A stretch of 64,000 nucleotides of DNA from Palleronia pontilimi (GTDB taxonomy: Bacteria; Pseudomonadota; Alphaproteobacteria; Rhodobacterales; Rhodobacteraceae): the NCBI RefSeq assembly GCF_016412875.1, contig NZ_JAEKPD010000010.1, positions 62,001-126,000 on the forward strand, in the 5' to 3' direction. The notes under the pieces are model-generated. The model saw only the letters and a program-made list of their open reading frames with translations. It was not told the origin of the DNA and did no database searches. Positions 13,210 through 25,863 of this stretch are shown here, piece by piece. A program made the translations under genes and the position numbers. How positions within the stretch are numbered: position 1 is the first letter of the stretch; each line of letters opens with the position of its first letter.

Positions 13210-13742
13210 CCGCAGCCCTCGTGGCATTCTCCATCTCGGGTTGCTCATCCGAAAATCCGCTGATCCCCGCCGCCAGCTACCGCGACACGGCCGTCAACAT
13301 GAGCTCGATCGCGCTGTTCGATCCCGCGGAATACGCGGGCCGCTGGTACGAGATCGCGTCCTATCCGGTGCCGTTCCAGCAGGGCTGCACCCAGACCCAA
13401 GCCGTCTATACGCCGCGCTCGCCGGGCGTGTTGGACGTGCGCAATTCGTGCCTGCGCGACGGCAAGCTGCAAAGTATCGCGGGCGAGGCGCGCCTGGCGG
13501 GGCCGGGGCGGCTGGCGGTCAGTTTCGACACCGTGCCGTTCCTGACCGCGCCCTATTGGGTGCTGTGGGTGGACGAAGGCTACCGCACCGCCGTCGTCGG
13601 CGTGCCGTCGGGCCGGGCGGGCTGGATCCTGAACCGGGATCCGCAGATCCCGGACGACCGGCTGGAGGCTGCGAAAGAGATCCTGCTCTTCAACGGCTAT
13701 GACCTGGCGGAATTGCAGATGACGCCGCAGGTCGCGCCATGA
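13194..13742 (+). CDS. Bacterial lipocalin (Blc-like lipoprotein)
   Basis: A 182-residue lipocalin with an export signal and lipobox SISGC (C17), so probably an outer-membrane lipoprotein. The lipocalin signature 'YAGRWYEIASYPVPFQQGC' begins the barrel, and 'APYWVLWVDEGYRTAVVG' and 'GWILNRDP' are the later conserved strands. Blc-type lipocalins bind lysophospholipids or fatty acids. The start at 13194 lies inside the end of the preceding lipoprotein gene. The stop overlaps the dehydrogenase start (ATGA), so the two are translated from one message. Confidence 0.92.
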   Translation: MQKLLTAALVAFSISGCSSENPLIPAASYRDTAVNMSSIALFDPAEYAGRWYEIASYPVPFQQGCTQTQAVYTPRSPGVLDVRNSCLRDGKLQSIAGEARLAGPGRLAVSFDTVPFLTAPYWVLWVDEGYRTAVVGVPSGRAGWILNRDPQIPDDRLEAAKEILLFNGYDLAELQMTPQVAP

Positions 13743-15175
13743 GCCGCGCGGCCATCGTCGGCGGCGGCGTCATCGGCGGCGGCTGGGCGGCGCGCTTTGC
13801 GCTGATGGGCTGGGACGTGGCGGTGTTCGATCCGTCACCCGACGCGCGCGAGGCGCTCGACGCCGTGATGGCGCGGGCGCGGCGCGCGCTGCCCGGCCTT
13901 TACGATCGCGCGCTCGGCGACGAAGGGCGCGTGACGCTGCACGACGACATGGCGCAGGCGTTGCAGGGCGCCGAGTGGATACAGGAAAGCGCGCCCGAGG
14001 ATCTGAAGCTGAAACAGGGCCTTATCGCCCGGATCGAAGAACACGCCGCGCCAAGCGCGATCATCGCGTCTTCGACCTCGGGCTTTCGGCCGTCGCAGCT
14101 GCGCGACGGCGCGCGGAATCCCGACCGCATCGTGGTCGCGCACCCATTCAATCCCGTCTACCTGCTGCCGCTGGTGGAGCTGGTCACCGAAGACGGCCCC
14201 TTCGCCACCCGCGCCGCCGAGATCCTGCGCGAGATCGGCATGGACCCGCTGCACCTGACCACCGAAATCGACGCGCACGTGGCCGACCGCCTGCTCGAAT
14301 CGATCTGGCGCGAGGCGCTTTGGCTGGTGCGCGACGGCATCGCCACGACCGAGCAAATCGACCGCGCCATCACCCACGGCTTCGGTCTGCGGTGGGCCCA
14401 GATGGGCCTGTTCGAGACCTACCGCATGGCGGGTGGCACCGGCGGGATGACCGATTTCCTGAAGCAGTTCGCCCCCGCGCTCGCCTGGCCCTGGTCGCGG
14501 CTGACGGACGTGCCGGAAATGGACGACGCGCTGGCCACCCGGATCGGCGCGCTATCGGATGCCCAGGCGGGCGGGCGCACGGTCGCCGAGCTGGAAGAGA
14601 CGCGGGACGACAACCTTGTGGGCATCCTGCGCGCGCTGCGCCATGCCGATTGGGGCGTGGGCAAGCATCTGAAAGAACACGAGAATAGCCGGGGCGCGCC
14701 GCCGATCGACTGGTCCCGGCCCATCGTCACCGCCGACCGGGTGGTGCCGCTGGACTGGACCGATTTCAACGGCCACATGACCGAATCGCGCTACCTGCTG
14801 GCCTTCGCCGACGCCACCGAGCGGCTGATGGAGTTCATCGGCTGCGACGACGCCTATATCGCCGCGGGCAGGTCGTTCTTCACCGCCGAGACGCATATCC
14901 GCCACGTCTCGGAAATCCACGCGGGCCACCGCTTCCGGATCGAAACGCAGGCGCTGCAATCCGAGGGCGCGAAGCTGCATGTCTTCCAGCGCATGCTCGA
15001 AGGCGACCGTCTGCTGGCCACCGGCGAGCACTTCCTGCTGCACGTGTCGCTGGAAACCCGTCGACCCGCGCCGCCGACGGGGGCCTTGGCCAGCGGGATG
15101 GCGCGCCTGGCGGAAGGGCATCGCGGCCTGCCATATCCCGAGGGCGCGGGGCGCGCGGTCGGTCAGCGTCCGTGA
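13739..15175 (+). CDS. lcdH: L-carnitine dehydrogenase fused to a thioesterase
   Basis: A 478-residue two-domain protein. The N-terminal part (about 1-315) is a 3-hydroxyacyl-CoA-dehydrogenase-type NAD enzyme with Rossmann motif 'IVGGGVIGGGWAA' and 'VVAHPFNPVYLLPLVELV' (in part HPFNPVYLLPLVE), typical of carnitine 3-dehydrogenase. The C-terminal part (about 330-478) is a hotdog thioesterase with 'DWTDFNGHMTESRYL'. In known fusions the first domain oxidises L-carnitine to 3-dehydrocarnitine and the second is thought to hydrolyse betainyl-CoA from the BKACE step. With the BKACE gene broken, this pathway would stall unless another copy exists. Confidence 0.88.
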   Translation: MSRAAIVGGGVIGGGWAARFALMGWDVAVFDPSPDAREALDAVMARARRALPGLYDRALGDEGRVTLHDDMAQALQGAEWIQESAPEDLKLKQGLIARIEEHAAPSAIIASSTSGFRPSQLRDGARNPDRIVVAHPFNPVYLLPLVELVTEDGPFATRAAEILREIGMDPLHLTTEIDAHVADRLLESIWREALWLVRDGIATTEQIDRAITHGFGLRWAQMGLFETYRMAGGTGGMTDFLKQFAPALAWPWSRLTDVPEMDDALATRIGALSDAQAGGRTVAELEETRDDNLVGILRALRHADWGVGKHLKEHENSRGAPPIDWSRPIVTADRVVPLDWTDFNGHMTESRYLLAFADATERLMEFIGCDDAYIAAGRSFFTAETHIRHVSEIHAGHRFRIETQALQSEGAKLHVFQRMLEGDRLLATGEHFLLHVSLETRRPAPPTGALASGMARLAEGHRGLPYPEGAGRAVGQRP

Positions 15176-17225: not shown

Positions 17226-18680
17226 TTAATGCGCCACACGGCCAGAGGTCGGGCCGGACGTGTCGCGCAGCGGCGCTTCGCCCGGCATCGCGGCGGCGGC
17301 GCGTTCGGTCTTCGGGGCTCTCACCGGGTCGGCCGCGATCACGCAATTGCGCCCGGCATCCTTCGCGCGGTAGAGCGCCGCGTCGGCCAGCGCCAGCATC
17401 CGTTCGGGCGCCGCGGACCCGCAGGCGGCACCCACCGAGACAGTGATCGGCAAGGCCGAGCCGTCCGGAGCCGGGACAGGCGCCGCCGAGACGGCGCGGC
17501 GCAACCGCTCGGCCGCGGCAAGCGCGTCGGCATCCGAGCTGCTGGGCAGGGCCACCAGGAATTCCTCGCCGCCGATGCGCGCCAGAAGATCGCCGTCGCG
17601 GATGCTGTCGCTCAGGCGGCGCGCGATCTGGGTCAGGACCATGTCTCCGGCCGCGTGGCCGCGGGCGTCGTTGATCGCCTTGAAATGATCCACGTCCAGG
17701 ACCAGAAGTCCGTAGGGGCGGCCGGTCTCGCGCGCCTGGCGGGCCAGATCCTCGAGATAGCGCATGGCGTAGCGGCGGTTGAAAAGTCCCGTCAGCGAAT
17801 CGTGCGCCGCCATTGCCAGCCCGGCTTCGACCGACGCGCGCAACGCATCGGCTTGACGCTTCAGGTGCAATTGCCTGTCGAGATGCAGCAAGACCTCGTC
17901 CGGCAAGGCATCGTCGCGCACCAGGTCGCTGGCACCCTGGTCCAGCGCGCGGGCCCCGTATTCGCGGGCGCGGGACGTGTATTCGACCACGATGCCTGCG
18001 CGCTTCGTGTCGCGGCGGGTGCGCAGCTCGGACAGCAGGGTCAGGTTGTCTTCCGCGTCCGCACCGCAGCACAGCATGAAGACCTCGGGCGCGCGATCCG
18101 GATCGTCGGTGGCCATCAGCGCCCCCATGGGCGTCAGGACCTCGAACTTGTGCGCGGACAGCGATCGGATCCTGCGGGCCGTCTGGCGGGCCCGCAACGG
18201 GTCGGAGGACACGATCGCCACCCGCGCTTGGGTGGCGAAACTGGCTTGATCCTCGGCGAAGCCGATCCGGGCGGCCGTCATCGAACGGCGCCGCAACTCG
18301 GCCCGCGTCTCCGAGGCGCGCAACAGCGCGCGCAGATGCGTCAGAAGCCAGGGGCGCTGCACCGGGCGGCTGACGAGGGCGGTGGCACCGGCGCGCAGCG
18401 CGTCCAGGCGCGCCTCGGGCGTGCCGTTTTCGATCATCATCAGGATGGGCGGCGCCGCGTCGCCCAGGACCGCGCGGGCGTGCGCGCAGAAATCGGACGC
18501 GCGCATGTCGGGCAGGGTGACATCCACGACGATGGCGTCGACGGTCTGGCTGGCCAGCGCCTCGAGCCCCTCTTGTCCTTGCGACACGGCCCGGGTTTCG
18601 TATCCTGCAACCCCCAGCATCGCTTTCAGCGCGATCCGATTGGTGGCCGTGGCATCGACAATGAGGATTCGGCGTGGCAT
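17226..18680 (-). CDS. pleD: PleD-like response regulator / diguanylate cyclase (REC-REC-GGDEF)
   Basis: A 484-residue protein with two receiver domains (about 3-122 and 152-272) and a GGDEF domain (about 290-455) that makes cyclic di-GMP. The active site is GGEEF at 370-374, and RDGD at 361-364 is the product-inhibition (I) site at the canonical 5-residue spacing. REC1 keeps the phosphoacceptor D53, but the second acidic-pocket residue is Ala (A10 after D9) and the conserved Lys is Arg (R105). REC2 looks degenerate, as in Caulobacter PleD. A C-terminal 30-residue tail is Ala/Pro-rich. It is divergent from the DUF3572 gene. Confidence 0.9.
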   Translation of the reverse strand: MPRRILIVDATATNRIALKAMLGVAGYETRAVSQGQEGLEALASQTVDAIVVDVTLPDMRASDFCAHARAVLGDAAPPILMMIENGTPEARLDALRAGATALVSRPVQRPWLLTHLRALLRASETRAELRRRSMTAARIGFAEDQASFATQARVAIVSSDPLRARQTARRIRSLSAHKFEVLTPMGALMATDDPDRAPEVFMLCCGADAEDNLTLLSELRTRRDTKRAGIVVEYTSRAREYGARALDQGASDLVRDDALPDEVLLHLDRQLHLKRQADALRASVEAGLAMAAHDSLTGLFNRRYAMRYLEDLARQARETGRPYGLLVLDVDHFKAINDARGHAAGDMVLTQIARRLSDSIRDGDLLARIGGEEFLVALPSSSDADALAAAERLRRAVSAAPVPAPDGSALPITVSVGAACGSAAPERMLALADAALYRAKDAGRNCVIAADPVRAPKTERAAAAMPGEAPLRDTSGPTSGRVAH

Positions 18681-18771: not shown

Positions 18772-19068
18772 ATGAAGCGGAACACCGCCTATTCGAGGGA
18801 CGCGGCCGAAACGCTGGCCATCGACGCGCTTGGCTGGATCGCGTCCACGGACGATCTGCTCGACGCCTTCATGGGGGCCAGCGGCGTGGGCCGCGACCAT
18901 CTGCGGGACCGGCTTGACGATCCCGATTTCCTGGCAGCGATCCTTGATTTCCTGCTGATGAACGATGCTTGGATCACCGGCTTTTGCGACGCGCGTGACT
19001 TGCCATACGAGGCCCCCGCCTCGGCCCGGGCGGCCCTTCCGGGCGGCGCGCAAGTGCACTGGACCTGA
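18772..19068 (+). CDS. DUF3572 family protein
   Basis: A 98-residue, mostly helical, acidic protein. 'AETLAIDALGWIASTDDLLDAFMGASGV' (in part AIDALGWIA, LDAFMGASGV) and 'ILDFLLMNDAWITGFCDA' (in part FLLMNDAWITGFC) identify the DUF3572 family of alphaproteobacteria. The function is unknown. GGAAA lies upstream of the ATG. The gene is divergent from pleD across an AT-rich 91-nt gap with several TTAA motifs. Presence beside cyclic-di-GMP genes is a recurrent neighbourhood, which suggests but does not prove a signalling link. Confidence 0.88.
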   Translation: MKRNTAYSRDAAETLAIDALGWIASTDDLLDAFMGASGVGRDHLRDRLDDPDFLAAILDFLLMNDAWITGFCDARDLPYEAPASARAALPGGAQVHWT

Positions 19069-19220: not shown

Positions 19221-19823
19221 ATGCACGGCCTGATAAACCGATCGCTGCAGAATTTCGTACAGGACGTCTATGGCCCCGAGGTCTGGACAGATGTCGTGGC
19301 GCGCGCCGAGCTCGAATTCGACGAGTTCGAGGCCATGCTGACCTATGACGACGATCTCAGCTTCTCGGTGCTCCAGGCCACCTGTGACCAGTTGTCCAAG
19401 CCGCGCGAGGTGCTGCTGGAAGATCTGGGAACCTACCTTGTCACCCATCCCAACACCTGGCGCATCCGGCGCCTTCTGCGGTTCGGCGGCGCGGATCTGA
19501 TCGATTTCCTGCTGTCGCTGGACGATTTGGCCGATCGCGCCCGCCTGGCGGTGCCCGATCTCGTCCTGCCCCAGATCCATGTGATCAGCGGTGCGGGCGA
19601 CGGTGCGCGGTATATCCTGCGCTGCGAGGAGGTCGGATCGGGGATGGAATACATCGCGCTGGGCTGCTTGCGCGCGATGGCGGACGATTACGGTGCGCTG
19701 GCCATGGCGCAACTGATGGATCCGCTCGACGACGCCGATACCTCGCCGCGGATCGAAGTGACGCTTCTGTCCACCAAGTTCGCCGCCGGGAACCGGTTCG
19801 AACTGACCGGCGAGGTGCATTGA
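19221..19823 (+). CDS. H-NOX-like (heme NO-binding fold) protein lacking the usual heme ligands
   Basis: A 200-residue protein with the H-NOX N-terminus ('MHGLINRSLQNFVQDVYG') and the family order of later motifs. Heme-binding H-NOX proteins need a proximal His in L-D-x-x-H-x8-P and a YxSxR motif. Here the first is 'LDDLADRARLAVP' with A104 in the His position, and the second reads Y131-I-L-R-C135. I therefore infer that heme is not bound in the standard way; it may sense another ligand or act as a partner protein. GGGAGG precedes the ATG. Its stop overlaps the next ATG (TGATG), coupling it to the diguanylate cyclase. Confidence 0.82.
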   Translation: MHGLINRSLQNFVQDVYGPEVWTDVVARAELEFDEFEAMLTYDDDLSFSVLQATCDQLSKPREVLLEDLGTYLVTHPNTWRIRRLLRFGGADLIDFLLSLDDLADRARLAVPDLVLPQIHVISGAGDGARYILRCEEVGSGMEYIALGCLRAMADDYGALAMAQLMDPLDDADTSPRIEVTLLSTKFAAGNRFELTGEVH

Positions 19824-20872
19824 TGTCAGGGGTGAAGCTGGGTGCGGGCGCGCTCGATACGCTGCTTCCCATGCACCTGCGGTTCGACGACAGGGGCATC
19901 GTCCGCCATCTTGGACCGGGACTTGCGCGGTTGGCGGGCAAGCGAAAGATCGTCGGGCAGCCTGTCCTCGATGCCTTCCAATGGACGCGCCCCTCGGGCA
20001 TCGACACTCTGCAGACGCTGCTCAGCGTCGCCGGACAGCGTCTGCGGCTGAATTTTCGTGCGGGCCGACGGGTGCGCCTGCGCGGCATCGTTCAACCCAT
20101 GGAACAAGGTGCCGGTGGGATCATCGACCTGGCGCTGGACCTGTCGGAATTGCGCGACCTGGGCGGGGCGCCGCTGACGCGCCGGGATTTCAGCCCCACC
20201 GATCCAACGGTCGATATCCTGTACCTGATCGAGGCGAACAACGCGGCCATGGCCGCAAGCAGGCGCCTGATCGACCGGTTGCAGGGCGCCAAATGCCAGG
20301 CCGAAACCCAGGCCTTCACCGACATGCTGACGGGTCTGAGCAACCGGCGCGCGCTGGACCGGGTGCTCGACCGCCTGGTCGAAAGCGGCGAGCCCTTTTC
20401 GCTGACCCATGTGGATCTTGATTTCTTCAAGAAGGTGAACGACACGCTGGGCCACGCGGCCGGCGATTACGTCCTGACGGTCGCGGCGACCCGGTTGCGG
20501 GATGCCACCCGCCAGACGGATACGGTCGCGCGGGTGGGGGGCGACGAATTCGTGGTGCTCTTCCGCGGTCTCACCGATCCCAACACGCTGAATATCATCG
20601 CCGGGCGGATCATCTCGAGCCTCGAGCAGCCGGTGAATTTCGAAGGCAAGACCTGTACGATCTCGGCCAGCCTCGGCACCGCCATCTCGACCCACTATTC
20701 GTCCCCGGACGTGGACCGGATGATGGCCGATGCCGATGCAGCGCTTTACACGGCGAAGCGGGCAGGGCGCGGGCAGTATCGCATCGCCGCGCCTGACACC
20801 CTGCAGGACAGCGCGGGAAACGATGACCGCCCCGCACTGTCGCGCTCGGATGACGCCGCCGCGCGGCCCTAG
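19823..20872 (+). CDS. HNOBA-like / GGDEF diguanylate cyclase
   Basis: A 349-residue protein. The N-terminal part (about 10-115) resembles the H-NOX-associated (HNOBA) sensor fold. A short helical linker (about 130-165) follows, then a GGDEF domain (about 165-325) with active site GGDEF at 239-243. RQTD at 230-233 is the inhibitory site at the canonical spacing, so feedback by cyclic di-GMP is expected. No membrane segment is visible. Its ATG overlaps the stop of the H-NOX-like gene. H-NOX proteins regulate cyclases in trans in other bacteria, so the pair is likely a two-protein signalling unit. Confidence 0.87.
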   Translation: MSGVKLGAGALDTLLPMHLRFDDRGIVRHLGPGLARLAGKRKIVGQPVLDAFQWTRPSGIDTLQTLLSVAGQRLRLNFRAGRRVRLRGIVQPMEQGAGGIIDLALDLSELRDLGGAPLTRRDFSPTDPTVDILYLIEANNAAMAASRRLIDRLQGAKCQAETQAFTDMLTGLSNRRALDRVLDRLVESGEPFSLTHVDLDFFKKVNDTLGHAAGDYVLTVAATRLRDATRQTDTVARVGGDEFVVLFRGLTDPNTLNIIAGRIISSLEQPVNFEGKTCTISASLGTAISTHYSSPDVDRMMADADAALYTAKRAGRGQYRIAAPDTLQDSAGNDDRPALSRSDDAAARP

Positions 20873-21678
20873 GAGCCGCCGTCGATCTGCGATGCCATGA
20901 TGGCGATCGCCTGCTGGTACACGGTTGCCGCGTTCCATTCCTGGATCACGCGGAAGTTCGGCTGCCCCTGCTGATAGCCCTGTCCCGGACGCCAGCCCTT
21001 CTGGCGCAGGAAATTCGCGGTCGAGGCCAGAGCATCGGTCACGTTCGTCAGATCGACGCGGCCATTTCCGTCGGCATCGACGCCGTATTGCAGCACGTTG
21101 CCGGGCAGGAACTGGGTGTGCCCGACCTCGCCATGTTTCGCACCGCGCGTATTGGCCGACAGCGCGCCGCGATCGACCAGCTTCAGCGCGGCCAGAGCGT
21201 GCGGCGTGAAGAAGCCCGAGCGGCGGCAATCATAGGCCAGCGTGGCGATCGACGACACCACGTTGCTGTCGCCCATGAAGCGGCCAAAGCCGGTCTCCAT
21301 CCCGTGGATCGCCAGGATGACGCCCGCGGGCACGCCGTATTGCCGCTCGAGCGTGGCGTAGAAGCCGGGGTTCTGCGCGCGGCGCTGGCGCCCCTGGCTA
21401 ACGATCGTGGGCGCGCCGCGCACCTGCATGAACTTGTCGAGCGAGTATTTGAAGCTTTTCTGGTTGCGATCCGCGTTGATCGTAGACTGCGCGTAGCTTG
21501 TCGCGGCCAGCGCCTGCAATCCGCGCTGACCCACGCCCGCGCGCGCGGCTTCCTGGCCGAAAGCGGTCTTCCAGGCCTCGTAGCCGCCCGCCGAGTTGCC
21601 GCATTGCGCCGCGTGTGCAAGGCCGGGCAGCGCGGCCAAGCTGGCGACAAGGGCGGTAATCTTGAAAATCGGTCTCAT
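20869..21678 (-). CDS. Lytic murein transglycosylase (MltB-like, SLT_2 family)
   Basis: A 269-residue exported enzyme. The signal peptide (KITALVASLAALPGLAHA) is probably cleaved near residue 23. The catalytic Glu lies in 'AIHGMETGFGRFMGD', and 'HTQFLPGNVLQYGVDADGNG' (in part TQFLPGNVL) and 'LASTANFLRQKGWRPGQGY' (in part ANFLRQKGW) are SLT_2 motifs. It cleaves glycan strands of peptidoglycan to 1,6-anhydro ends. There is no lipobox, so it is periplasmic and soluble. GGGGAT precedes the ATG. Its stop and that of the convergent diguanylate cyclase share the palindrome CTAG (20869-20872). Confidence 0.92.
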   Translation of the reverse strand: MRPIFKITALVASLAALPGLAHAAQCGNSAGGYEAWKTAFGQEAARAGVGQRGLQALAATSYAQSTINADRNQKSFKYSLDKFMQVRGAPTIVSQGRQRRAQNPGFYATLERQYGVPAGVILAIHGMETGFGRFMGDSNVVSSIATLAYDCRRSGFFTPHALAALKLVDRGALSANTRGAKHGEVGHTQFLPGNVLQYGVDADGNGRVDLTNVTDALASTANFLRQKGWRPGQGYQQGQPNFRVIQEWNAATVYQQAIAIMASQIDGGS

Positions 21679-22662: not shown

Positions 22663-23700
22663 ATGGAATTCGCCCCCGACAGCCTTCAGGCCCTGCGCGA
22701 TGCGCCCGTCGATACCGTGATCGACGTGCGCTCGCCCGCCGAATTCGCCGAGGATCACGTCCCCGGCGCCATCAATCTGCCCGTGCTCAGCGATGCCGAG
22801 CGGGCGCGCGTGGGCACGATCTACGTCCAGCAAAGCCCTTTCCTTGCGCGCAAGATCGGGGCCGCGCTGGTGGCGCGCAACGCCGCGGCCCATATCGATG
22901 GACCACTTGCAGGCCATGACGGCGGCTGGCGTCCGCTGGTCTATTGCTGGCGCGGCGGGCAGCGGTCGAACAGTTTCGCGGGGATCCTGGGGCAGATCGG
23001 CTGGCGCGTGTCGGTGCTGACGGGCGGCTATCGCAGCTACCGTGGGCTGGTGAAGGCGCAGCTCTATGACCGGCCCTTACCGGCGCGCGTGGTGCTGCTG
23101 GACGGCTACACTGGCACCGCGAAGACCGAGCTTTTGCATCTCGTGGCCAAGCGCGGCGGCCAGGTCATCGACCTGGAGGGTCTGGCCAATCATCGCGGCT
23201 CGCTCTTCGGCGCGATGGGCGAGCAGCCGTCGCAGAAGGGGTTCGAATCGCGGCTGGCGGCGCAGGTCATGGCGCTCGATCCCGACCGCCCCGTGCTGGT
23301 TGAGGCCGAGAGCAGCAAGGTCGGTCAGCGCATCGTGCCGCCGTCGCTGTGGGCCGCGATGGGCGACGCGCCACGGATCCGGATCGAGGCGCCATTGGCC
23401 GCGCGCGCGGCCTACCTGCAAGGGACCTACGCCGAGATCGGGGCAGATCCCGCGCGCCTTGACCAGACGCTGGAAGCCCTGATCCCCCTGCAGGGCCACG
23501 CGCGCGTGGCGGTCTGGCGGGCGCTGGCCGAAGCGCGCGACGGCGTGGCGCTGGCGTCAGAGCTGATGACGCATCACTACGATCCGCGATACGCACGGCA
23601 GGCGGGCGCGGCCGATGTCACGCTGCGCACGCCGGTTCTGGATGCGGACGGGCTGGCGGCGCTGGCCGACCGGATCATGGACGAGCTGGCGAAGCTCTAG
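22663..23700 (+). CDS. selU: tRNA 2-selenouridine synthase
   Basis: SelU (MnmH/YbbB) converts 2-thiouridine at the tRNA wobble position to geranylated thiouridine and then to 2-selenouridine using selenophosphate. The 345-residue protein has an N-terminal rhodanese domain with the catalytic Cys C95 in 'LVYCWRGGQRS', and a C-terminal P-loop domain with 'LDGYTGTAKTEL' at about 147-157 (a GxTGxxKT loop). Length is normal. The selenophosphate synthetase gene is convergent and only 6 nt away, which fits a dedicated tRNA selenation locus. Confidence 0.94.
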   Translation: MEFAPDSLQALRDAPVDTVIDVRSPAEFAEDHVPGAINLPVLSDAERARVGTIYVQQSPFLARKIGAALVARNAAAHIDGPLAGHDGGWRPLVYCWRGGQRSNSFAGILGQIGWRVSVLTGGYRSYRGLVKAQLYDRPLPARVVLLDGYTGTAKTELLHLVAKRGGQVIDLEGLANHRGSLFGAMGEQPSQKGFESRLAAQVMALDPDRPVLVEAESSKVGQRIVPPSLWAAMGDAPRIRIEAPLAARAAYLQGTYAEIGADPARLDQTLEALIPLQGHARVAVWRALAEARDGVALASELMTHHYDPRYARQAGAADVTLRTPVLDADGLAALADRIMDELAKL

Positions 23701-23706
23701 AGCGGG

Positions 23707-25863
23707 TCAGGCCAGCACGATGCGGACCGGTCCGTCGGTGATCGCGCCGATCAGGGCCGGGGTGTAGCCTTTATCCGTGAGCGCGGCCAGCACCGCGTCG
23801 CTTTGGCCGGGTGCGATCGCGGCCAGCAGCCCGCCCGCCGTCTGCGGATCGAACAGGATCTCGTCGGCCTCTGTTTCAAGCCCGTCGATCCGCCCGGCCA
23901 GGTGGCGGTTCGCCGCGTGCAAGGTCGAGCGCTGGCCCGCGTCGAGCAGCGCGCGTGCGCCGTCCATGAAGGGCAGCGCGGCCCGGTCGATCCTGGCCCC
24001 GACGCCTGCGGCGTCGAGCATGCCCATCAGGTGCCCGGCCAGCCCGAACCCGGTCACGTCGGTCATCGCGTGGGCGTCTCCGAGAACCGCCGCGGCGGCG
24101 ATCTGGCTTTGCGCCATAGTGCGCAACGCCTGCGCCTCGTCGCAGCCGCGGGCCCGCAGGGCCATGGCGGCGGCCATCAGGACGCCCGAGCCGAGCGGCT
24201 TGGTCAGCACCAGGTGATCCCCCGCCCGGGCGCCCGCAAGCTTGATGGCGGGCCGGTCGAGCAGGCCGGTGACGGCGAAGCCGATGGCCAGCTCGGCCCC
24301 GGTGGCGGTGTGGCCGCCGACGATGGCCGCACCCGCCCCGTCGAACACCGCGCGCGCGGCATCCATTACGTCGCGCAGGGTGCGCGCCTCGAGCGCGGGG
24401 GCGGCGCGCGGCAGGGTCAGGATCGGCAGGGCGGCTTGCGGTGTGGCGCCCATGGCCAGGCAATCGCCAAGCGCGTGATGCGCCGCGATATGGCCCATCA
24501 GGCGCGGATCGTCGGTGACCGCGCGCACCTGGTCGACCGTGATGGCCTGTCGCGCGGCGCCGATCCGCAGGATCGCTGCGTCGTCGCCGATGCCTTCTTC
24601 GATGTCGTCGCGGGCCGTGCGGTGATGGGCCAATGCCGCGCTGAGCGTCGCCTGGCCGACCTTCGCCGCGCAGCCGCCGCAGGGCGCCTGGTCGGTCAGC
24701 GCGTCCAGGCCCGCGGCGTGCTCGGATGGGGGCTCGGTATTCATGGCGGGCAGATCGGCGAGCCGTGACATGAACGTGCGGTCGATATGGTCTTTCCAGC
24801 GCCACAGAAGCGGGCCGGACAGGCGCAGGCCCAGCTTGTCGGCAACGGCGGATTTTTGGCCGGTCGAGATCAGCTTCAGGTAATCGCGCTGGGGCCGGTA
24901 GTAGGACCATCTGCCCGCGCCCATGGCCGCGCGGAAGTTCCGCGTCAGGATCGGGGCCTGGCGGACCGCGAAGACCCCCGCCTTGGGTCGCGGCGCGAAG
25001 CCCATATGCGCGCAGTCGCCCGCCGCGAAGATGGCACGGTCCGAACTGCGCAGGGTGTCGTCGACGGTGACGAAGCCTTCGTGCAGGTCCAGCCCCGTTT
25101 CGGCCAGCCACGCGTAGGGCCGCGCCCCGGCCGCACCGGTGACGAAGCGGGCGGGAATGGTCCGGCCGTCTGCAAGCAGGACGTGCGTGGCCTTGATCTC
25201 GGACACCTCGGCCCGCTCGATCAGCGTCACGTCGTGGCGCTGCATCGCGTGCCTCAGGGCCCGTTCGGCGCCGCGGCCGACACCGCTCAGCGCGGCGGAG
25301 CTGTCGATGACGGTGACCGGCGCGCCGCCCGCCCCGAAGGACATGGCCATCGCCAGCTCGACTCCGGCCACACCCCCGCCGATCACCGCCTTGGGCGCGG
25401 CGCGGTCGGGGCCGTCCAGATGGGACGCCCATTTGGATGCGAAGCGACCCAGCGGCTTGGCGGCGACGCCGTGCGCGTCGAAGCCCGGCAAGTCGGGCAT
25501 GTCCGAATGGATCCCGATGTCGATCGAGGCCACGTCATAGGCGACGCGACGCGGGCCGAGAAGCGCATCCTCCACCGCGATTTCGCCCGCGGCGCGGTCG
25601 ATGCCGGTGGCGTGTCCCAGGATGATCCGTGCGCCGGCGAACCGGGCCAGCCGCATCAGGTCGATCTCGAGCGTGTCGCGGTCGTAATGACCCGCGACGA
25701 AGCCAGGCAGCATGCCCGTATAGGGCGCGGTGGGACCGGGGTTGATCAGCGTGAGCCGGGCACCGGGCAACGGGTCCATCCCCCAGGCGCGCAGCACCAG
25801 CGCGTGGGCGTGGCCGCCGCCGATCAGCACCAGATCGCGGGTGGCGGGCCAGGCGGGGGTCAT
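23707..25863 (-). CDS. selD: Selenide, water dikinase fused to an NADH dehydrogenase-like flavoprotein domain
   Basis: A 718-residue fusion. Residues about 1-375 form a pyridine-nucleotide-disulfide-type FAD oxidoreductase ('LVLIGGGHAHALVLRAWG' at the start, 'FAAGDCAHMG' later). Residues about 385-718 form SelD with the catalytic region 'APCGGCAAKVG' near 392-402, a Cys rather than Sec enzyme, and 'GIGDDAAIL' and 'IVGGHTATG' for ATP binding. SelD makes selenophosphate from selenide and ATP. The flavin domain may supply or channel reduced selenium or couple to a quinone, which is inference. The fusion is known in several bacterial groups. It converges on selU. Confidence 0.93.
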   Translation of the reverse strand: MTPAWPATRDLVLIGGGHAHALVLRAWGMDPLPGARLTLINPGPTAPYTGMLPGFVAGHYDRDTLEIDLMRLARFAGARIILGHATGIDRAAGEIAVEDALLGPRRVAYDVASIDIGIHSDMPDLPGFDAHGVAAKPLGRFASKWASHLDGPDRAAPKAVIGGGVAGVELAMAMSFGAGGAPVTVIDSSAALSGVGRGAERALRHAMQRHDVTLIERAEVSEIKATHVLLADGRTIPARFVTGAAGARPYAWLAETGLDLHEGFVTVDDTLRSSDRAIFAAGDCAHMGFAPRPKAGVFAVRQAPILTRNFRAAMGAGRWSYYRPQRDYLKLISTGQKSAVADKLGLRLSGPLLWRWKDHIDRTFMSRLADLPAMNTEPPSEHAAGLDALTDQAPCGGCAAKVGQATLSAALAHHRTARDDIEEGIGDDAAILRIGAARQAITVDQVRAVTDDPRLMGHIAAHHALGDCLAMGATPQAALPILTLPRAAPALEARTLRDVMDAARAVFDGAGAAIVGGHTATGAELAIGFAVTGLLDRPAIKLAGARAGDHLVLTKPLGSGVLMAAAMALRARGCDEAQALRTMAQSQIAAAAVLGDAHAMTDVTGFGLAGHLMGMLDAAGVGARIDRAALPFMDGARALLDAGQRSTLHAANRHLAGRIDGLETEADEILFDPQTAGGLLAAIAPGQSDAVLAALTDKGYTPALIGAITDGPVRIVLA

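Follow-up and report, generated by a model that had tools for sequence, protein, structure and literature searches.

H-NOX Proteins without Proximal Histidine and Their Partner Cyclases

The annotation of a bacterial protein as H-NOX suggests that it is an NO sensor. For an H-NOX gene in Palleronia pontilimi, which overlaps the gene for a diguanylate cyclase, this annotation raises a question: what can such a protein sense or regulate when the histidine that ligates heme in ordinary H-NOX proteins is missing from its sequence? The gene lies in a stretch of 64,000 nucleotides, referred to here as the window, to which all coordinates refer. The reading as an NO sensor is unsafe in the Rhodobacteraceae, because the heme ligand was identified in just 17 of the 239 members of the class to which the protein belongs, the reported NO sensor of D. 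shibae among them. In PMC8738867, the Group 5 H-NOX proteins are described as having a proximal histidine in less than 10% of the members, mostly a proline instead, no conserved cysteine, and a signal that is not known. What these proteins sense is a published question, which can be put to the test where a cell has no more than two diguanylate cyclases, as in the organism analysed here.

The H-NOX Protein of the Window

The H-NOX gene (19221..19823, + strand) encodes a protein of 200 amino acids and is the one HNOB gene found in the genome. The Pfam profile PF07700 (HNOB) matched the protein with an E-value of 6.5e-22 and 78.6 bits (cut-off 25.5), and no NCBIfam match to the open reading frame was found. 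Among solved structures, Nostoc Alr2278 was matched by sequence (E 9.3e-15). An AlphaFold2 model, based on an alignment of 121 class sequences, reached a pLDDT of 93.4 and a pTM of 0.89. In a Foldseek search with this model, the Nostoc H-NOX was the top match (E 3.5e-13, TMq 0.79-0.80), with the beta subunit of sGC coming next. The protein is thus a member of the H-NOX/HNOB family with a complete predicted H-NOX fold, in agreement with the original prediction, which had recognised the fold and had named structure prediction as a check.

In the alignment with Nostoc Alr2278, which has no gap close by, His105 falls on Ala104 (codon GCC, 19530..19532, + strand). The proximal histidine of heme-binding H-NOX sensors is replaced by alanine, as had been stated before, and the GCC codon is one step away from the proline codon CCC. 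Two other histidines had been named as places where the proximal ligand might lie instead, and both were excluded, on grounds of conservation and by the alignment, in which H76 falls on Y77 and H120 on E121 of the Nostoc protein. The YxSxR motif, the propionate motif of heme-binding H-NOX sensors, is also absent. Its loss had been predicted correctly, but the residues said to replace it, YILRC, were read in a shifted register: Nostoc LHYQSTRAGL aligns with LRCEEVGSGM of the window protein, so that CEEVG (residues 135-139, 19623..19637, + strand) occupies the place of the motif.

The Partner Cyclase and the Surrounding Genes

The overlapping gene (19823..20872, + strand) codes for a protein of 349 amino acids, for which Pfam, the AlphaFold2 model and fold matches indicate a PAS/HNOBA-like domain, a signalling helix and a GGDEF diguanylate cyclase domain. 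Its possible start codon, the ATG at 19823, lies within the H-NOX stop codon, and in the sequence TGATG (19821..19825, + strand) the two genes share one nucleotide; the overlap had been noted originally. The GGDEF domain was matched in Pfam with 133.9 bits, and an RxxD I-site (RQTD) is located five residues ahead of the GGDEF motif. Both motifs were thus read as before, and by them the protein is predicted to be a product-inhibited diguanylate cyclase, the I-site being the basis on which feedback inhibition may be expected. Of the earlier designation as an HNOBA-GGDEF cyclase, the GGDEF part holds; the HNOBA profile PF07701 came close to its cut-off, with 22.3 bits against 23.4. The AlphaFold2 model (pLDDT 92.9, pTM 0.72) contains the GGDEF domain behind PAS-like strands and a long helix that spans residues 128-164. 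In the fold search, PAS-GGDEF-EAL and GGDEF proteins came out on top.

The adjoining PleD-like cyclase that had been described is present as a REC-GGDEF gene with a GGEEF motif (17226..18680, - strand), identified by Pfam, NCBIfam and the genome search. Two GGDEF genes were found in the genome, which is estimated to be 99% complete, and both are at this locus; the two EAL genes are located away from it. Upstream of the H-NOX gene, a DUF3572 protein is encoded (18772..19068, + strand; Pfam, 103 bits). On the other side, the stop codon of a lytic transglycosylase gene (SLT_2, 229 bits; 20869-21678, - strand) overlaps the stop codon of the cyclase gene on the opposite strand by four bases. The gene at 23707-25863 (- strand) encodes a fusion of Pyr_redox_2 and AIRS/AIRS_C domains, which we take to be a SelD-like part fused to an NADH-dehydrogenase-like part. 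It lies next to the gene for a rhodanese-domain protein (22663-23700, + strand), presumably resembling tRNA 2-selenouridine synthase. At 13739-15175 (+ strand), a 3-hydroxyacyl-CoA dehydrogenase is fused to a thioesterase-like domain.

Distribution of the Class and Its Proximal Residue

From a larger group of genomes, the census took the 394 that belong to the same family. HNOB was present in 296 of them, and the window protein was matched in 289, a few of these matches being canonical or very weak relatives. Beyond the matches listed, loci were retrieved for only part of the genomes. The 294 loci obtained gave 288 distinct sequences (one locus, L204, had no matching open reading frame), and four of these were too short to cover the proximal site, leaving 239 class members and 45 canonical H-NOX proteins. 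The class set is free of near-duplicates and includes four fragments of less than 150 residues; for L113 and L207, whose matches contain an internal stop, the open segment alone was used. A quick tree of 285 rows split the 239 class members from the 45 canonical proteins and Nostoc without error (SH-aLRT 95), L284 having been reassigned to the class by the tree.

At the proximal position, the class contains Pro in 177 members, His in 17, Gln in 11, Asn in 7, Ala in 6 and Arg in 6, and more rarely Ser (5), Gly (3), Glu (2), Thr (2), Val (2) or Asp (1). Histidine is absent from 222 of the 239 members, compared to its presence in 44 of the 45 canonical H-NOX proteins of the same family. The remaining canonical-type protein, L075, carries Gln at this position and has the YxSxR motif. 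In the genus of the window, 13 of 14 genomes matched the protein, and the 13 distinct class sequences contain Pro (9), Ala (2) or Val (2) and no His. For the best 80 of 570 named relatives, which overlap in part with the census genomes and so are no independent sample, a simple motif reading gave 59 Pro, 5 His and 14 other residues, with 2 unread. By their record titles alone, these relatives belong to Rhodobacteraceae or roseobacter-type bacteria, one being titled 'Alphaproteobacteria bacterium'. The window H-NOX is one member of a large class and not a one-off, and a heme-independent role, in line with the original proposal of a repurposed sensor-cyclase system that may respond to a ligand other than heme-bound NO, fits the rarity of the histidine across this class.

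Conservation of the Gene Pair

Of the 238 class members compared, 236 have 700 or more bases of sequence on their downstream side, and 223 of these are followed on the same strand, at most 800 bases away, by a homologous GGDEF open reading frame, which excludes a chance pairing. Split by the proximal residue, the 223 comprise 207 of 219 members without and 16 of 17 members with the histidine. For canonical H-NOX, such a gene was found in 7 of 45 cases. In partner reading frames of at least 290 residues, 206 of them from His-less members, the GGDEF motif is kept in 204 and the I-site in 203; the 16 from His-bearing members all contain both. Most often, the estimated cyclase start shares four bases with the H-NOX stop (126 pairs); in 32 pairs it shares one base, the type present in the window. 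HNOBA was detected at an E-value of 0.01 or better in 78 of 91 sampled partner cyclases. The cyclase is also located downstream in 79 of the best 80 of 570 named relatives. Upstream, synteny is only partial, since among the 73 named relatives (from the best 80 of 570) whose upstream flank reaches about 3 kb or more, 39 have DUF3572 and 27 a PleD-like gene on that side. In the census, where flanks are mostly short, DUF3572 was upstream in 17 of 197 loci with at least 600 bases there.

Conserved and Variable Positions

G70, P117 and G148 occur without exception, in the class as in the canonical set, wherever a row covers the column, and we infer by homology that G70 and G148 are the hinge glycines. 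Whatever the proximal residue, W22, E37, E67, D68, R83, R84, R87, R106, R151 and A154-G158 (ADDYG) are near-invariant in the class. In the canonical rows, W22, E37, E67, D68, R87, R106, R151 and D156 each occur in 0 to 4 of 45 (R87, R106 and R151 in 2, 0 and 2), A154, D155 and Y157 in 6 to 8 of 45, and G158 in 25 of 45; for R83 and R84, a residue is present in just 4 canonical rows, which makes the contrast weak there. Two blocks, RRLLRF (83-88) and ADDYG (154-158), stand out as near-invariant in the class; the former is comparable in few canonical rows, and the latter is partly common to canonical H-NOX.

No conserved cysteine was identified in the class, the top column, C135 at the place of the motif Tyr, reaching 55%. 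Among the columns with His, Cys, Met or Tyr in at least 40% of the His-less members, no clear replacement heme ligand was found. Of these columns, C135 alone differed with the proximal residue (128 of 221 His-less and 5 of 17 His-bearing members, p 0.04 uncorrected). The strongest companions of the histidine in 1069 tests were Trp at the position that Ser has in YxSxR (9 of 17 versus 20 of 220, p 2e-5), where the 4 supported independent pairs are too few for a test, and Ser at residue 8 (14 of 16 versus 71 of 218, p 2e-5).

History of the Histidine and NO Metabolism

Parsimony gave 15 changes of the histidine on the 285 rows and 14 on the class alone. Under a two-state model, His had a probability of 0.02 at the root of the class, and the fit with gains allowed (lnL -60.8) was much better than without gains (lnL -105.7). 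On a subset of 56 rows, a single His clade was not rejected (p-AU 0.29). One loss followed by regains, retention in one clade and many parallel losses are all compatible with these results.

NO metabolism was compared in 80 chosen genomes, 17 His-bearing and 63 His-less, with NirK and NnrS as the markers covered. In this weak test, neither marker was associated with the state of the histidine: NirK was over the cut-off in 3 of 17 and 9 of 63 genomes, and NnrS in 10 of 17 and 30 of 63. The window genome contains neither of the two, its NirK-like match being under the cut-off.

Proposed Function of the H-NOX Protein in Cyclase Control

The explanation we favour, giving it about an even chance, is that the window H-NOX regulates the adjacent cyclase as a subunit that does not depend on heme, probably restraining it constitutively. 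The protein would retain the H-NOX body with its two lobes, the hinge glycines and the proline that faces heme in other H-NOX proteins, and would probably contact the PAS/HNOBA domain of the cyclase by a class-specific surface, while a His-ligated heme would no longer be used. That hinge, proline and class surface are kept and the ligand is lost points to a regulator which acts on the cyclase by means other than a His-ligated heme. NO displaces the proximal histidine of ordinary H-NOX proteins (PMC7108781), and an H-NOX that lacks this ligand could therefore look like the NO-bound form, which inhibits the cyclase. Without the Fe-His bond, the window protein may sit in or near this NO-induced conformation. 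The level of c-di-GMP would be set by the amount of H-NOX or by another input, together with product inhibition at the I-site.

The probable direction of this control is taken from P. denitrificans. In PMC5588039, the hnoX mutant is described as partly biofilm-deficient with no BapA, and the dgcAB mutant as overproducing biofilm, opposite to hnoX; inhibition of DgcA by H-NOX was suggested by the authors. Besides these phenotypes, a heme-independent subunit is supported by the rarity of the histidine in the class as compared to canonical H-NOX, by the retention of the cyclase gene, GGDEF motif and I-site in His-less and His-bearing members, by the lack of a clear replacement ligand column, and by the H-NOX and PAS-helix-GGDEF folds, both predicted with high confidence. 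Against it stands the proposal of the same authors that NO stimulates the inhibition of DgcA, the absence of the histidine notwithstanding (PMC5588039), and the kept Pro117, with which a cofactor could still be bound. For the family as a whole, we consider it possible, but only tentatively, that its H-NOX proteins are mostly non-heme after an early conversion from an NO sensor to a subunit, fixed or differently liganded, of one of the cell's few cyclases, and that rare His-bearers like that of D. shibae kept or regained gas sensing. A further point against the favoured explanation is that NO sensing may be an ancestral or alternative role in the class, since the D. shibae member has the histidine and is a reported NO sensor.

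A somewhat unlikely alternative is that the protein has been re-purposed to sense another ligand for the cyclase, with a different small molecule in the pocket, either hydrophobic or anionic and held by the class arginines. The predicted intact fold with its kept hinge would suit such a sensor, as would the near-invariant R83, R84, R87, R106 and R151, of which the last three are rare in canonical H-NOX; however, no ligand is known, and the same arginines may instead form the interface to the cyclase. Less probable still is that heme stays bound, through a different residue or with no ligand from the protein, and that the pair remains an NO sensor. The invariant Pro117 is consistent with this, and the systems of D. 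shibae and P. denitrificans have been tied to NO (PMC7232146, PMC5588039). The lack of a clear compensating column and the loss of YxSxR argue against it, as does H76, which is equally frequent in members with and without the proximal histidine (11 of 16 and 147 of 214); so, as weak tests, do the missing link of the histidine to NirK and NnrS and the absence of both from the window genome.

A thiol or zinc redox sensor is very improbable. The model for it is the heme-free H-NOX of V. cholerae, which senses oxidants through Cys (PMC7108781), and C135 in 55% of the class might serve in the same way, but no Cys column exceeds this share and Group 5 is likewise described without a conserved Cys (PMC8738867). 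A vestigial, decaying sensor, suggested by the loss of ligand and motif, is hardly credible given a class signature and a gene pair that are near-invariant throughout the family, the matches in 289 of 394 genomes, nearly all without internal stop among the matches listed, and the phenotype of the P. denitrificans hnoX mutant (PMC5588039).

Comparison to Known Systems

The His-less H-NOX class and its cyclase neighbour have already been published (PMC5588039, PMC8738867); a literature search, with subscription papers mostly outside its scope, found no later study of His-less H-NOX. Our analysis adds that the cyclase neighbour, GGDEF motif and I-site are retained with or without the histidine, the neighbour counts as such not being claimed as new, and that the hinge glycines, the conserved proline and the class signature are near-invariant in both cases.

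The class shows the traits of Group 5. The histidine is mostly lost, chiefly to proline (177 Pro and 17 His in 239, with Ala in the window), its share of 7% agrees with the published figure, the top Cys column stays at 55%, and the glycine hinges G70 and G148 are invariant. For P. denitrificans and R. sphaeroides, H-NOX proteins without the axial histidine were reported, and in P. denitrificans the H-NOX gene overlaps a GGDEF gene (PMC5588039). The C. sphaeroides member of our set, L143, from a genome matched best by records of strain 2.4.1, falls into the class with Pro at the proximal position. Like Group 5 and the P. denitrificans HnoX-DgcA pair (Pden_3719/3720), most members of the class have no proximal histidine and no conserved cysteine but have the glycine hinges, and the overlapping GGDEF gene encodes an N-terminal domain. 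Two GGDEF proteins are present in P. denitrificans as in the window organism, the first together with H-NOX and the second bearing a receiver domain. The window differs in the alanine, a minority state, and in its two cyclase genes, which are close together and diverge; P. denitrificans is known here by its published description.

The H-NOX of D. shibae was reported to sense NO and to inhibit Dgc1 (PMC7232146 and PMC8846402). The D. shibae member of the class, L062, has the proximal histidine and is presumably Dshi_2815 by elimination, being the sole HNOB match in that genome. The genome was assigned to D. shibae DFL 12 by a 4-kb piece of its second contig (190,506 bases), which agrees in coordinates with plasmid NC_009955.1, a record of equal length, although other records, such as that of Sagittula sp. 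P11, contain this piece too. By the tree, L062 belongs to the same class with the same gene pair as the window, from which it differs in the kept histidine and its reported function as a heme NO sensor.

The canonical H-NOX proteins of Nostoc (Alr2278), Shewanella, Vibrio and Legionella share the fold, the hinge glycines and the conserved proline with the window protein, which in contrast is missing the proximal histidine and YxSxR and has the signature at 83-88 and 154-158. The H-NOX domain of the sGC alpha subunit is, as proposed for that of the window, a domain without bound heme that has a part in cyclase control, although it is eukaryotic, fused to its cyclase and coupled to another type of nucleotide cyclase.
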